A DNA stretch of 64,000 nucleotides, taken from Evansella cellulosilytica DSM 2522. Lineage in GTDB: Bacteria; Bacillota; Bacilli; Bacillales; Salisediminibacteriaceae. Under the pieces are notes generated by a model. The model saw only the letters and a program-made list of their open reading frames with translations, did no database searches and was not told where the DNA came from. The stretch lies in NCBI RefSeq assembly GCF_000177235.2, contig NC_014829.1, positions 434,001-498,000 on the forward strand. The letters run 5' to 3'. The translations under genes were made by a program, and so were the position numbers. Below are positions 3,259 through 60,218 of the stretch, one piece after another (the stretch's first letter is position 1; each line of letters starts with the position of its first letter).

Positions 3259-3302
3259 AAATCAGTATTTGATAGATTTTGTGAAGTGAATTCAATAATG
3301 AT

Positions 3303-3373
3303 GCCTCATATATATTTAGGAATAAGGCCTAAGTGTTTCTACCAGGTAGCCGTAAACAACCTGACTATGAAGG
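3303..3373 (+). promoter_or_regulatory. Guanine riboswitch aptamer (guaA leader)
   Basis: The purine aptamer core is present: L2 AATAAGG closed by TTAGG/CCTAA, J2/3 TTTCTACC, L3 CCGTAAA on a P3 helix AGGTAG/CAACCT, and J3/1 GACTATG. The specificity base (position 74 in xpt numbering) is C, which means guanine rather than adenine. P1 is CCTCATA against TATGAAGG, slightly imperfect. Ligand binding should favour the terminator that follows and lower guaA expression when guanine is plentiful. Confidence 0.93.
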
Positions 3374-3391
3374 TAGACCTTTCTTAACGTA

Positions 3392-5214: not shown

Positions 5215-5239
5215 TTGAATATGTTAATACTCTGTGCAT

Positions 5240-5308
5240 GTTCGTATAATTTCGGGAATAGGGCCCGTAAGTTTCTACCGAGCTACCGTAAATGGCTTGA
5301 CTATGAAC
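5240..5308 (+). promoter_or_regulatory. Guanine riboswitch aptamer (pbuG leader)
   Basis: P1 GTTCGTA/TATGAAC, L2 AATAGGG closed by CGGG/CCCG, J2/3 TTTCTACC, L3 CCGTAAA on GAGCTA/TGGCTT, and J3/1 GACTATG. The specificity base is C (guanine). Nearly canonical, and in front of a guanine/hypoxanthine permease as in B. subtilis. Confidence 0.95.
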
Positions 5309-5376
5309 AATGGGATAGAACTAGTTTTTTTATTAAAACTACTTTAAACCATTTTTTATAGTTGCAATTTATGAAG

Positions 5377-13024: not shown

Positions 13025-13049
13025 AGTAACGAAGAATTGAATATCATTA

Positions 13050-13118
13050 CCTCGTATAATCTTGGGAATATGGCCCATAAGTATCTACCTAATGACCGGA
13101 AATTATTAGACTATGAGG
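13050..13118 (+). promoter_or_regulatory. Guanine riboswitch aptamer (pur operon leader)
   Basis: P1 CCTCGTA/TATGAGG, L2 AATATGG, J2/3 TATCTACC, L3 CCGGAAA on CTAATGA/TTATTAG, and J3/1 GACTATG with the guanine-specific C. Two bases differ from the common core (T to A in J2/3, T to G in L3); both correspond to positions that are flipped out in known structures, so function is probably kept. Confidence 0.92.
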
Positions 13119-13180
13119 GAGACTGCCGTGTGTAACAAACTTGGCTCTACATGGAGCCATTGTATTGTTATTGGTTTTCA

Positions 13181-16267: not shown

Positions 16268-16313
16268 GAGGGCACTGAAAAAGGCCTCCGATATTGACCT
16301 TTTTCAGTCCCTC
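16268..16313. repeat. Stem-loop between purB and purC
   Basis: GAGGGCACTGAAAAAGG pairs with CCTTTTTCAGTCCCTC (one bulged C) around a 13-nt loop. No T run follows, so it is unlikely to be a full terminator. It carries the same ACTGAAAAAG stem found in several other hairpins of this window. It could act as an mRNA processing or stability element inside the operon. Confidence 0.75.
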
Positions 16314-26294: not shown

Positions 26295-26305
26295 CTAGTA
26301 TAGGA

Positions 26306-26345
26306 AGACACTGAAAAAGTGGGTATTCTTTCACTTTTTCAGTGT
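26306..26345. repeat. ACTGAAAAAG-type stem-loop after purD
   Basis: GACACTGAAAAAGTG pairs perfectly with CACTTTTTCAGTGTC around a 10-nt loop. It uses the same stem motif as the hairpins at 16268, 31188-31361 and 60048-60218. Confidence 0.8.
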
Positions 26346-26403
26346 CCCTAGTATAGGTGTAGGGCGCATTTGTCATGTGAATACTATTATGTGGTTTTGT
26401 GCG

Positions 26404-30710: not shown

Positions 30711-31016
30711 TTGCAAATAAATAAATTACGTGGAAAAGAATTAGATCAATTATTTGAAGCGATATTAAGTCTTAAGGACTTAGAAGAGTGCTATCAGTTT
30801 TTTGACGACTTGTGTACAATGAACGAAATACAATCGTTGGCACAACGTTTAGAAGTAGCGAGAATGCTGATGGAAGGATACACATATCAGCGTATAGAAA
30901 AAGATACCGGTGCTAGTACTGCAACAATTTCTAGAGTAAAACGTTGTATTAATTATGGAAATGATGGCTATAAGTTCACTCTTGAGAGAGTACATGGAGA
31001 GTTAAAAGAAAAGTAA
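30711..31016 (+). CDS. yerC: TrpR-like regulator YerC
   Basis: 101 residues, very close in sequence and length to B. subtilis YerC (TrpR/YerC/YecD family). ELDQLFEAILSLKDLEECYQFF is followed by a Trp-repressor-type helix-turn-helix (SLAQRLEVARMLMEGYTYQ, then TGASTATISRVKRCI). The TTG start lies about 7 nt after GAGAGGGTGAG. It probably binds DNA as a dimer; its targets are unknown. Confidence 0.92.
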   Translation: MQINKLRGKELDQLFEAILSLKDLEECYQFFDDLCTMNEIQSLAQRLEVARMLMEGYTYQRIEKDTGASTATISRVKRCINYGNDGYKFTLERVHGELKEK

Positions 31017-31024
31017 AAGACTAA

Positions 31025-31070
31025 AAAGACTTAAAACTAGCTTATGAAGCCAGTTTTAAGTCTTTTTTTT
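31025..31070 (+). terminator. Terminator of yerC
   Basis: AAAGACTTAAAACT with AGC pairs with GCC AGTTTTAAGTCTTT, one internal mismatch, followed by eight T in all. Confidence 0.9.
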
Positions 31071-31084
31071 AGATAAGTATAAAT

Positions 31085-31160
31085 TAGGCAGTGAAATTTT
31101 ATCACCATGCGTACTAGCGAGAAGAGCACTCACTAGTCTATGGAGAAATTCCACTGCTTC
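31085..31160. repeat. Hairpin repeat family 2, copy A
   Basis: GGCAGTG/CCACTGC form the outer stem and GTACTAG/CTAGTC the inner stem. The shared core is TAGCGAGAAGAGCACTCAC. Compared with copies C and D (42311, 49146) both stems carry paired changes. It is followed directly by TTCTAAGAAAAGAC and the left arm of a terminator. Confidence 0.8.
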
Positions 31161-31170
31161 TAAGAAAAGA

Positions 31171-31388
31171 CTAAAAACGAGCTTCAAGCGAGGCCACTGA
31201 AAAAGTATAAAACAACTTTTTCAGTGCCTTTTATTTGTATTGCAGTCGCTCGCCTGATAGGAGAAACCCGCTCCTATCAGGCTTTTAAACGATTGCGACG
31301 GCTACGCACATTGCTTAAGGGCACCGAAAAAGTGAAAGAACGCCACTTTTTCAGTGCCCTTGCTTCAATCTCGTTTTTAGTTTTTTTT
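31171..31388 (+). terminator. Terminator split by an inserted repeat element
   Basis: CTAAAAACGAG at 31171-31181 and CTCGTTTTTAG at 31370-31380 are perfect complements followed by eight T, but 188 bp separate them. Removing 31188-31361 and one copy of the flanking GCTTCAA leaves a normal terminator with a 7-nt loop, like those after copies C and D of repeat family 2. Confidence 0.75.
31188..31361. mobile_element. MITE-like family 1 element (copy c) with 7-bp target duplication
   Basis: 174 bp flanked by direct repeats GCTTCAA at 31181-31187 and 31362-31368. The ends form inverted repeats (GGCCACTGAAAAAGT against ACTTTTTCAGTGCCC), and each end is also a hairpin. The centre is a hairpin GCCTGATAGGAG/CTCCTATCAGGC, and the core GCGACGGCTACGCACATTGCTT is shared with copies a, b and d. 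It encodes no protein, so any movement would need a transposase in trans. Confidence 0.75.
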
Positions 31389-31459
31389 AAGGATACTTCA
31401 GTAAATCAGCAAACCATCATTTATTGTTAAACTCTACTAATGAGTAAAGAGCTTTTTTT

Positions 31460-31468: not shown

Positions 31469-31533
31469 ATTCAGCAGAGTAGAAAGATAAAGATGCGGAA
31501 TAGGGTTGTAATCCGTTGGTGCTGTGATGCTGT

Positions 31534-31720
31534 TGTTGAACGGAAAGGAACTGCAGAAAGTATTCCGTTTAAGTGGAGAATGCGTTGTTGAACGGAAAGG
31601 AACTGCAGAAAGTATTCCGATCAAGTGGAGAAGATGCTGTTGAACGGAAAACAACAGAAGAAAGTATTCCGTTCAAGTGGAGAAGATGCTGTTGAACGGA
31701 AAACAATCAAGAACTAGCAC
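31534..31720. repeat. Tandem repeat array, 52-bp period, about 3.5 units
   Basis: TGTTGAACGG begins at 31534, 31586, 31638 and 31690, exactly 52 bp apart. Within each unit TTGAACGGAA can pair with TTCCGTTCAA (variants in unit two), so each unit is a 10-bp-stem hairpin. A decayed unit is visible upstream from about 31495. The array lies 60 bp before pcrB. Confidence 0.92.
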
Positions 31721-31780: not shown

Positions 31781-32467
31781 ATGAAACAATATAAAGAATG
31801 GAAGCATGCCTTCAAACTGGACCCTAACAAAGAGATTTCAGACGAAGATTTAGAGCTTCTTTGTGAATCTGGAACGGACGGAATCATTGTTGGTGGAAGT
31901 GATGGTGTAACAGAAGAAAATACGATTGATCTTCTCATGCGTATTAGAAGGTATTCTGTCGCATGTGCATTAGAGGTATCTAATCTCTACTCTATCGTAC
32001 CTGGATATGATTATTACTTTATTCCTTCTGTCGTCAATACAACAAATGCAACATGGATTAATGGTCTTCATCATAGAGCGTTGAAGGAGTATGGTCATCT
32101 TATGAACTGGGATGAAGTAGTGACAGAAGGCTATTGTGTACTCAACCAATCTTCTAAAGTAGCACAATTAACAGATGCCAATACAGAACTTGATTCAGAG
32201 GATGTAATTGCTTATGCGAGAATGGCGGATAAGCTTTTTCACATGCCAGTATTTTATTTAGAATATAGCGGTAAGTATGGAGATCCCGACATTGTCGCTG
32301 AAGTGAAATATGTGTTAGAGCATTGTCGGCTTTTTTATGGTGGAGGAATTGAGTCGTTTGAACAAGCGAAAGAAATGGCGCAACATGCAGATACGATAAT
32401 AGTAGGAAATGTGATATATACGGATATTAAGGAAGCCTTGAAAACAGTAAATGCAGTGCAGGAGTAA
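31781..32467 (+). CDS. pcrB: Heptaprenylglyceryl phosphate synthase
   Basis: 228 residues, TIM-barrel PcrB. It makes an sn-1 ether bond between glycerol-1-phosphate and heptaprenyl diphosphate. [37 protein letters not shown] and LFYGGGIES are conserved in the family. GAGGGG lies 7-9 nt before the ATG. It heads the pcrB-pcrA-ligA-yerH cluster, as in B. subtilis. Confidence 0.95.
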
Positions 32468-42289: not shown

Positions 42290-42310
42290 TCAAGATTCAC
42301 AAAGCAAAAT

Positions 42311-42395
42311 TGGCGGTGGAAATGATGCCACGTGTAGTAGCGAGAAGGGCACTCACAACTACTTTAAAGACATGTGTCATCATTTCTTCACCGCT
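42311..42395. repeat. Hairpin repeat family 2, copy C
   Basis: Three nested helices: GGCGGTG/CACCGC, GATGCCAC/GTGTCATC (one mismatch) and GTAGT/ACTAC, around CGAGAAGGGCACTC. It is about 85% identical to copy D at 49146 and sits directly between gatB and its terminator, so it lies in the gat 3' UTR. Confidence 0.85.
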
Positions 42396-42398
42396 TAT

Positions 42399-42450
42399 AA
42401 GAAAAGACTAAAATCGAGCTTAATCCAGCTCTTTTTTAGTCTTTTCTTAT
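42399..42450 (+). terminator. Terminator of gatCAB
   Basis: AAGAAAAGACTAAAA pairs with TTTTAGTCTTTTCTT, with an inner GAGCT/AGCTC helix. The A-rich and T-rich arms should allow termination in both directions. From 42451 to the celB promoter at 42865 I see no gene. Confidence 0.85.
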
Positions 42451-49063: not shown

Positions 49064-49145
49064 TTTCAAGAGGGGAGGGGTTCAATAGGTTGATTTTTAG
49101 CTATTGTCTCCCTTTCTTTTTAAAAGGAAATGTATACATTACATT

Positions 49146-49230
49146 TGGCGGTGGACCTGATGCCACGCGTAGTAGCGAGAAGAGCCCTCACTACTACTTT
49201 AAAAACATGTGGCATCATTTCTTCACCGCT
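49146..49230. repeat. Hairpin repeat family 2, copy D
   Basis: The most regular copy: GGCGGTG/CACCGC, GATGCCAC/GTGGCATC and GTAGTAG/CTACTAC nested around CGAGAAGAGCCCTCA. It is directly followed by the dgkB terminator, so it lies in the dgkB 3' UTR. Confidence 0.88.
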
Positions 49231-49232
49231 TC

Positions 49233-49282
49233 TAAGAAAAACAAAAAAAGAGCTAAACGAAGCTCTTTTTTTGTTTTTCTTA
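49233..49282. terminator. Bidirectional terminator between dgkB and the convergent gene
   Basis: TAAGAAAAACAAAAAAAGAGCT is mirrored by AGCTC and a T-rich arm ending CTTA. It overlaps the last codon of the minus-strand gene at 49280. Confidence 0.82.
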
Positions 49283-50182
49283 TTCAATTCTCTCATAGTT
49301 TTTTAATGTTTTTAGCATTTGGACGGTTAAATAGCCTTTCCATTCTTGCTTTACACGGGTTTCCCATTCATCTTTATATTGTCCCCATTCCCAAAACGGC
49401 TCCCACGAACCATCCTCTTTCTGATTGTTAATTTCATAATCTAAGTTTTTTTGAATGACATCTTCTAATGCATTAAACATCGCTGCATTTGGGCTAGGTG
49501 CTAAACTTAGTGGCTTCGCACAATAACCACCCCATTGTGTATGGTCGAGTGTTGCGATATCTCTAATACTATCTCTTAAATATTCAACGATCATCGTTTT
49601 CCCTGGATCAGGCATTTCTTCTACTAAACGTAAATAACACAACACTTCATGGTACTCAGGTGTTTTATGTTGATTATCGAGATGTTGAAATACACTTTCT
49701 TGAAAAATATGAAACAGCTGCTCTGGAATCGCTTGAGGATAAGCATGATAATATCCTACTATCTCAACACCAGGATTTGCTTGAAAGGAGGTTACATCCT
49801 CTGAGTGTTTCCACCAATCGGCATGCGGAAATTCATTCATATGGGACAGCTTAAGCGGCCATGTTTCAAAAGAATAATATGTATCAGTGAAATATTTCAT
49901 GACAGATTGAATAAAAGGGTGCTCCCATGATGCTTTTACTTCGCGTGCATATTGAAGCGCAACAGTTGATACGATTGGACTAGAGAATTTGGATCGAATA
50001 TCTGGCTCTAGCCCGTGACCAACGCCACCATCTTCATTTTGATAAAACTGCAACTGCTGCATCACTTCGAGACTTGATCCGCTATTAAAGTGATATTCAA
50101 ATAAGGCGCGATCAATTGGTCGAGCGTAGTGGTGAATATAATGAACTGCAAGGGCATATTTCTCTTGAGATAGTTTTATCAT
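49280..50182 (-). CDS. Terpenoid-cyclase/prenyltransferase-fold protein of unknown function
   Basis: 300 residues, soluble, no signal peptide. Repeats of the type QNEDGGVGHGLEPD, DHTQWGGYCAKPLSLAP and NQKEDGSWEPFWEWG are typical of alpha/alpha-toroid (squalene-cyclase-like) folds, but the DxDD or DxD catalytic motifs of terpene cyclases are not seen. The ATG at 50182 has GAGGAG upstream; the frame extends to 50299 without a ribosome site. Substrate and role cannot be assigned. Confidence 0.7.
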   Translation of the reverse strand: MIKLSQEKYALAVHYIHHYARPIDRALFEYHFNSGSSLEVMQQLQFYQNEDGGVGHGLEPDIRSKFSSPIVSTVALQYAREVKASWEHPFIQSVMKYFTDTYYSFETWPLKLSHMNEFPHADWWKHSEDVTSFQANPGVEIVGYYHAYPQAIPEQLFHIFQESVFQHLDNQHKTPEYHEVLCYLRLVEEMPDPGKTMIVEYLRDSIRDIATLDHTQWGGYCAKPLSLAPSPNAAMFNALEDVIQKNLDYEINNQKEDGSWEPFWEWGQYKDEWETRVKQEWKGYLTVQMLKTLKNYERIE

Positions 50183-59928: not shown

Positions 59929-60047
59929 GTATTAATTAGCTTATTAGACACTTAAAAAAGCTATGTTAAATCTGTTTGTGATTTTCGCTTCAAGATACTC
60001 TCTTGAAGGGCATTGCTTTATGAGAGAACTGAGGTAGGTGGATCTTT

Positions 60048-60218
60048 GAGACTGCTGAAAAAGTACAAAACAATTTTTTTCAGTGCCTTTTATTTGTATT
60101 GCAGTCGCTCTCCTGACAGGAGAAACCCACTCCTATCAGGCTTTTTAACGATTGCGACGGCTACGCACATTGCTTAGGGGCACTGGAAAAGTGGAAGAAC
60201 ATCACCTTTTCAGTGCCA
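60048..60218. repeat. Structured intergenic repeat, family 1, copy d
   Basis: About 171 bp and close to the element at 31188-31361: left hairpin CTGAAAAAGT, central GCAGTCGC/GCGACGGC enclosing CCTGACAGGAG/CTCCTATCAGG, core GGCTACGCACATTGCTTAGGGG, and right-end hairpin GGCACTGGAAAAGTG/ACCTTTTCAGTGCC. No clear target duplication remains. Confidence 0.8.

Follow-up and report, generated by a model that had tools for sequence, protein, structure and literature searches.

A 172-bp gene-less element, found between the arms of a terminator hairpin in the yerC-pcrB gap of Evansella cellulosilytica DSM 2522, is very probably a MITE that an IS1182-family DDE transposase mobilised in trans into the terminator loop, with duplication of the loop. 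The window is the whole stretch of DNA analysed, 64,000 nucleotides of contig NC_014829.1 (positions 434,001 to 498,000), and belongs to a genome of one contig with 4,681,672 bases (G000). The gap is flanked by two genes which, from their protein sequences, we take to be yerC (30711-31016) and pcrB (31781-32467). It contains a composite unit of 218 nt (31171-31388), formed by the outer arms, the element and a T8 tract, and preceded by the body of a repeat called here family 2. The features of the site, in window positions, are the following:

31023..31067, + strand: terminator-like hairpin directly 3' of yerC, upstream of the insertion (inverted repeat, 95% complementary, T run after it)
31075..31170, + strand: body of the family 2 host repeat bearing the terminator (genome matches)
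31171..31181, + strand: left arm of the host terminator hairpin, CTAAAAACGAG (sequence, inverted-repeat listing)
31181..31189, no strand: left copy of the target duplication, GCTTCAAGC (8/9 identical to the right copy)
31190..31361, + strand: 172-bp mini-element (MITE, type 1), GAGGCCACTG...CAGTGCCCTT (direct-repeat peak over 176 pairs; 40 or more other genome matches)
31195..31226, + strand: 5' terminal hairpin of the element, CACTGAAAAAGT / ACTTTTTCAGTG (fold, sequence)
31252..31282, + strand: central palindrome, GCCTGATAGGAG / CTCCTATCAGGC (sequence and fold)
31317..31361, + strand: 3' terminal hairpin of the element (inverted repeat, 94% complementary)
31362..31370, no strand: right copy of the target duplication, GCTTCAATC (8/9 identical to the left copy)
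31370..31380, + strand: right arm of the host terminator hairpin, CTCGTTTTTAG (sequence, inverted-repeat listing)
31381..31388, + strand: T8 tract 3' of the host terminator hairpin (sequence)

In the pcrB leader, at 31508-31702, a unit of about 52 bp (GTATTCCGTTCAAGTGGAGAAGATGCTGTTGAACGGAAA and variants) is repeated in tandem.

The first-pass annotation had described a 174-bp element flanked by a 7-bp repeat. Its GCTTCAA pair is present at 31181-31187 and 31362-31368, and the outer arms are, as it stated, perfectly complementary and followed by eight T; the element and the flanking repeat were retained, with the length changed to 172 bp and the duplication to 9 bp with one mismatch. Removal of the element and one duplication copy yields CTAAAAACGAGCTTCAAGCTCGTTTTTAG, a near-perfect palindrome. 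This target is self-complementary and GCTTCAAGC almost matches its reverse complement, so that within an inverted repeat some direct repetition is to be expected anyway; taken by itself the direct repeat is weak evidence at this site, and the 7-bp repeat as stand-alone proof of insertion was rejected. The past insertion of a non-coding inverted-repeat element into a terminator loop, also claimed in that annotation, is upheld by other copies: their non-palindromic repeats and the spacing arithmetic of occupied terminators make the repeat more than chance.

The terminal inverted repeats of the element are GAGGCCACTGAAAAAGT / ACTTTTTCAGTGCCCTT and its ends are formed by GAGGSCACTGAAAAAGT, each end lying within a hairpin in which that repeat faces a second copy of itself. 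Of the listed ORFs just one overlaps the element (68 aa, 31224-31430), and it extends beyond it. A DNA search of the genome gave at least 51 matches (best 40 of 275 candidates scored, self match and sub-matches counted), and matches were identified in 5 of 9 Evansella genomes, its own counted. The end motif ACTTTTTCAGTGNC was counted 111 times on one strand and 113 on the other, where the reversed control gave 1 and 2. The element is thus short, has no gene of its own, carries terminal inverted repeats and exists as dispersed copies with target duplication, as a MITE does. Two other forms share its ends: solo hairpins (about 42-46 bp) and longer elements (about 250-290 bp) whose interior differs. 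The window itself contains two solo end hairpins (16268-16313 and 26304-26349) and a second type-1 copy (60047-60217). The roughly 80-bp interior of the 250-290-bp elements (GCTTTCCGTGGGCGGCTGGTGAGCCTCCT..., as in L138, 8-278) matches repeats in 7 of 9 Evansella genomes. Tandem hairpin-core-hairpin-core-hairpin arrays were observed at L032 (G000 919000-920700) and L044 (G000 396000-397300), where a single terminal hairpin doubles as the end of two adjoining elements; this suggests recombination or slippage between hairpins.

Testing the flanks of other copies for duplications, as had been advised, gave a positive result. The sampled G000 loci and the window gave 176 unique pairs of end repeats with at most two mismatches, a number that includes many inner pairs belonging to the same element. 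Over this set the direct-repeat signal is highest for n = 9, exactly 5 nt outward of CACTG/CAGTG. Repeats of 9 bp that agree at 8/9 or 9/9 positions flank 14 of the 176 pairs, 7 of those perfectly, whereas a mispaired-flank control reaches 8/9 in 0.5% of 10,497 cases. When only outer-end pairs were considered, a set of 66 that includes decayed copies and in which some pairs are alternative readings of one element, 15 presented a duplication of 8/9 (9-bp) or 7/8 (8-bp), against 1.2% of 12,995 mispairings. By type, these were 8 of 18 type-1 elements (G000 copies with both ends recognisable; 8- or 9-bp duplication), 4 of 16 of the 250-290-bp type and 3 of 32 solo hairpins. More than half of the type-1 copies lack a duplication, for which decay of old copies would account. 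The duplications AAAGAACAT, GAGATAAAA and GAATATGAC, located at the same element ends in other targets, are non-palindromic. In two congeners (G007 and G004; 40 loci sampled, 3 without a recognisable end pair) a duplication, mostly of 8 bp, was identified in 16 of 43 end pairs, 7 of these 16 being one amplified composite in which the element lies in a GCCCCGCAGCGAGTAGGCGCTGGAGC repeat with the duplication GCGAGTAG. This composite is amplified in G007 (L209-L244) and its empty repeat occurs in tandem in G001 (L165).

The mover was probably an IS1182-family insertion sequence (IS). The domain PF13751 is present in 8 of 9 Evansella genomes, and Evansella vedderi DSM 9768 (G008) contains two IS with element-like ends, GAGRCCACTGAAAAA: L171 (492-493 aa, with a duplicate, L269) and L164 (532 aa). 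Both proteins exceed the cut-off of the NCBIfam IS1182 model (NF033551), with 351 and 373 bits against 270, and match PF13751 and PF05598. L171 is flanked by a perfect 9-bp duplication, GAAAAGCAA, in a target that is not a hairpin by score (4.0), and L164 by a 7/9 duplication in a hairpin-loop target, GGGACAAGG(TACCTGTCC)CCTTGTCCC. A wider set was formed by 26 loci encoding relatives, from named genomes and mainly Firmicutes; with L171 and L164 included and the duplicate L269 left out it comprises 27. Ends were located in 21 of the 27 (two of the 21 have no left flank and were scored zero), so that IS copies with element-like ends are found in E. vedderi and in other bacteria. An 8-9 bp duplication (at least 7/9, or 8/8) was identified in 13 of the 21, a count favoured by choosing the better of two lengths and the best among several candidate ends.

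Hairpins were over-represented among the targets of both the mini-elements and the IS. The rejoined sites of 23 duplication-bearing insertions were scored, 14 from G000 and 9 from G007 and G004, with the amplified composite entered once. A hairpin centred on the duplication (score of at least 8) was present at 8 of the 23 sites, or 7 of 22 without the yerC-pcrB site, compared with 2.5% of the 1265 positions scored in those flanks (Mann-Whitney p = 0.00065), and 10 of the 23 fall within the local top 5%. The majority of targets are no clear hairpins: 15 of 23 score below 8 and 13 of 23 lie outside the local top 5%. For the IS, 8 of 21 sites have a hairpin target, where 3.2% of 1086 neighbouring positions do (p = 0.00011), as have 6 of the 13 with a duplication. 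Three perfect 9/9 duplications (L030, L094 and L139) are centred in loops of the family's own end hairpin. In the 66-pair set a flank-pairing score of at least 12 was reached by 8 pairs against 2.0 expected, with medians of 5.6 and 5.4, the excess being in the tail only; this mispaired-flank control is hard on the hairpin hypothesis, since different copies share related targets. Hairpin loops are thus preferred targets, not obligatory ones.

It could be argued that the element is a MITE of another IS, with ends convergent with those of the IS1182 type, and was moved by a different transposase. This would agree with what was found in G000, where a search with the E. vedderi transposase reached no better than E = 2.4e-4 and 26% identity and where, of 7 PF13751 matches, the 5 inspected all had other ends, so that no IS with the element's ends was found; derivation of the element core from an IS interior is also not evident. 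We consider this alternative unlikely, because IS1182-type IS from a congener and from other bacteria agree with the element in terminal sequence, duplication length and hairpin preference. Two candidates of the search were dropped: a 1.48-kb end-repeat pair of G000 (L122), which contains ORFs of 119 and 157 aa between its ends and was not kept as a full IS, and a decayed IS1182 copy near 2.855 Mb (L189), for which the nearby end repeat was a solo hairpin.

Insertion into a pre-existing terminator by an IS1182-family transposase, the preferred reading, is also consistent with the state of the family-2 terminators in the genome. The body at 31075-31170 has at least 56 genome matches (best 40 of 137 candidates scored, short palindromic sub-matches counted). 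Family 2 and its relatives (in the window at 31075-31170, 42310-42450 and 49140-49290) are an abundant structured intergenic repeat with a palindromic terminator-like hairpin at its end, and occur in tandem at G000 1561610-1562182 and 3089372-3089762. The first-pass annotation had matched the rejoined terminator to the two others of the window (42408-42439 and 49242-49273); the design is indeed the same, their stem sequence and loop are different, and closer empty paralogues of the occupied terminator exist elsewhere in G000. Intact short-loop hairpins of this kind, with a spacing of 19-22, account for at least 22 rows in the sampled G000 loci, one of them being yerC's own hairpin and tandem copies being counted separately. 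Occupied loops were identified at four loci. At the yerC-pcrB site an arm spacing of 200 less 19, the spacing of one class of empty paralogues, equals 172+9; at L002, 197 less 19 equals 170+8; at L136, 69 less 19 equals 42+8; and at L201, 71 less 19 equals 44+8. Two of the loops thus hold the 170-172-bp element and two only a 42-44-bp hairpin. The evidence at L136 is the spacing arithmetic, since its two flanking 8-mers are poorly conserved. A single arm is retained at L031 and L135, and by eye copies are found in the loop of family 2's second hairpin at L130, L133 and L137. Separately, other large terminator hairpins of G000, of the GAGGTTGACTGAAAAGGT type, contain solo 42-46-bp hairpins with partial 8-bp duplications in their loops (L198, L207 and L208).

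These counts bear on a further alternative, in which the outer stem is part of the element, family 2 and the mini-element form one larger composite and are copied together, and the direct repeat arises secondarily from a longer inverted repeat with the near-palindrome GCTTCAAGC in its arms. The outer arms do form one 47-nt inverted repeat, 85% complementary, and the match of L002 to the 218-nt query covers 216 positions and takes in element and arms alike. This explanation is largely refuted and we regard it as improbable: the family-2 arms are absent from most sampled copies of the mini-element, the terminators counted above are intact with a short loop, two further occupied loops hold just the 42-44-bp hairpin, and the non-palindromic duplications occur elsewhere at the same ends.

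The 218-nt unit folds at -95.5 kcal/mol on the + strand against -47.5 for shuffles (z = -12.06), and a second computation gave z = -11.42. A repeated structured regulatory RNA or attenuator of pcrB, for which this very stable fold with its three hairpins might speak, is scarcely credible, as there is no Rfam match at the site, copies lie at many unrelated sites in either orientation, none lies in the gap before pcrB of eight congeners, and target duplications are present. No Rfam match was obtained at the element's place in the window, and a relaxed threshold at eight loci gave only weak sub-threshold matches in neighbouring repeats and none at the element. Elsewhere the window contains three purine riboswitches above the Rfam gathering score (3286-3387, 5222-5323 and 13032-13133). 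An orthologous empty site with one GCTTCAA, for which the first-pass annotation had recommended a search, was not found: the gap of all eight congeners lacks element, arms and host repeat and is unalignable (for one of them, in which yerC could not be placed, the scan covered the 1500 bp upstream of pcrB). In the predicted RNA the outer stem persists around the inserted element, so that termination may persist; yerC has in addition the terminator-like hairpin upstream of the insertion.

For the insertion by an IS1182-family transposase we infer, in all its biochemical steps, the following course. The transposase would recognise the extruded hairpin (cruciform) rather than its sequence and would join the element into the loop of the terminator-like hairpin borne by family 2. 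The two strands would be attacked 9 bp apart, and repair would duplicate the loop (GCTTCAAGC) on both sides, with the two stem arms remaining outside them. Four sequence features point to this course: the element's ends, duplications of 8-9 bp at many copies, the empty paralogous terminators and the IS1182-type IS with the same ends; that this transposase moved this element is suggested by the shared ends. Extended to the whole IS1182 branch and its mini-elements, structure-directed transposition into an extruded hairpin loop, with cuts at both loop borders and loop duplication, is put forward tentatively, as plausible rather than probable. The perfect hairpins in which the elements terminate may themselves be landing sites, which would lead the elements to nest in each other and in terminators genome-wide.

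Through its probable mover, the family ties the abundant unannotated intergenic hairpin repeats of alkaliphilic Bacillaceae to a named transposase family, and it illustrates how terminators and transposon-end hairpins turn into hot spots where intergenic repeats accumulate. The loci are also natural sites for asking whether a DDE transposase picks its target by DNA structure. A description of this element was not found in searches of the open-licence literature, which is no proof of its absence in print.

Several known systems resemble this one in part. The bcr1-like MITEs and hairpin repeats of the Bacillus cereus group are also short, intergenic and dispersed, with terminal inverted repeats and a flanking duplication, but they have another sequence and a 5-bp duplication, and to our knowledge no preference for hairpin loops. 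IS1397-like IS, which enter the loops of REP or palindromic units, likewise use the loop of a repeated palindrome as target; they differ in belonging to the IS3 family, in their short duplication and in a target defined by sequence. The E. vedderi IS (L171/L269 and L164) share with the yerC-pcrB element the ends GAGRCCACTGAAAAA and the 9-bp duplication, and L164 its position within a hairpin loop, but are full-length and encode a transposase whereas the 172-bp element is gene-less.

The closest comparison is with IS1272/TnSha1 of staphylococci, also of the IS1182 family, some members of which target palindromes (Siguier et al. 2015, as cited in PMC5678879 and PMC4923244). According to these papers, the targets of IS1272/TnSha1 are inverted repeats, often terminators, recognised by structure and not by sequence, and one hairpin can be entered repeatedly by independent insertions. 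The present elements would resemble it in part: the yerC-pcrB target is an inverted repeat, hairpins are preferred but not obligatory targets, and hairpins of one kind appear to have been entered more than once. In PMC4923244, TnSha1/IS1272 always enters hairpins, several of them confirmed terminators, with a blunt deletion and no duplication, and in PMC5678879 new IS1272 insertions hit inverted repeats and replace the stem-loop, again without duplication. IS1272 thus cuts in the stem and removes the stem-loop, whereas here the stem is kept and the 8-9 bp loop duplicated; deletion of the IS1272 type was not observed at the yerC-pcrB site, and the 13 IS counted above also carry duplications. 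These duplications, set against the removal of hairpins by IS1272, would make the present elements a loop-duplicating MITE family. Three pathways are drawn in the discussion of PMC5678879, and the yerC-pcrB element and its relatives appear to fit the third (Fig. 13, pathway c), where the loop alone would be duplicated because the joining takes place at the 5' loop ends; for IS1272, loop duplication has been published only as this hypothetical pathway. Since IS1272 deletes hairpins, and the branch described here seems to retain them with a duplicated loop, the pair can serve to separate hairpin recognition from cutting.
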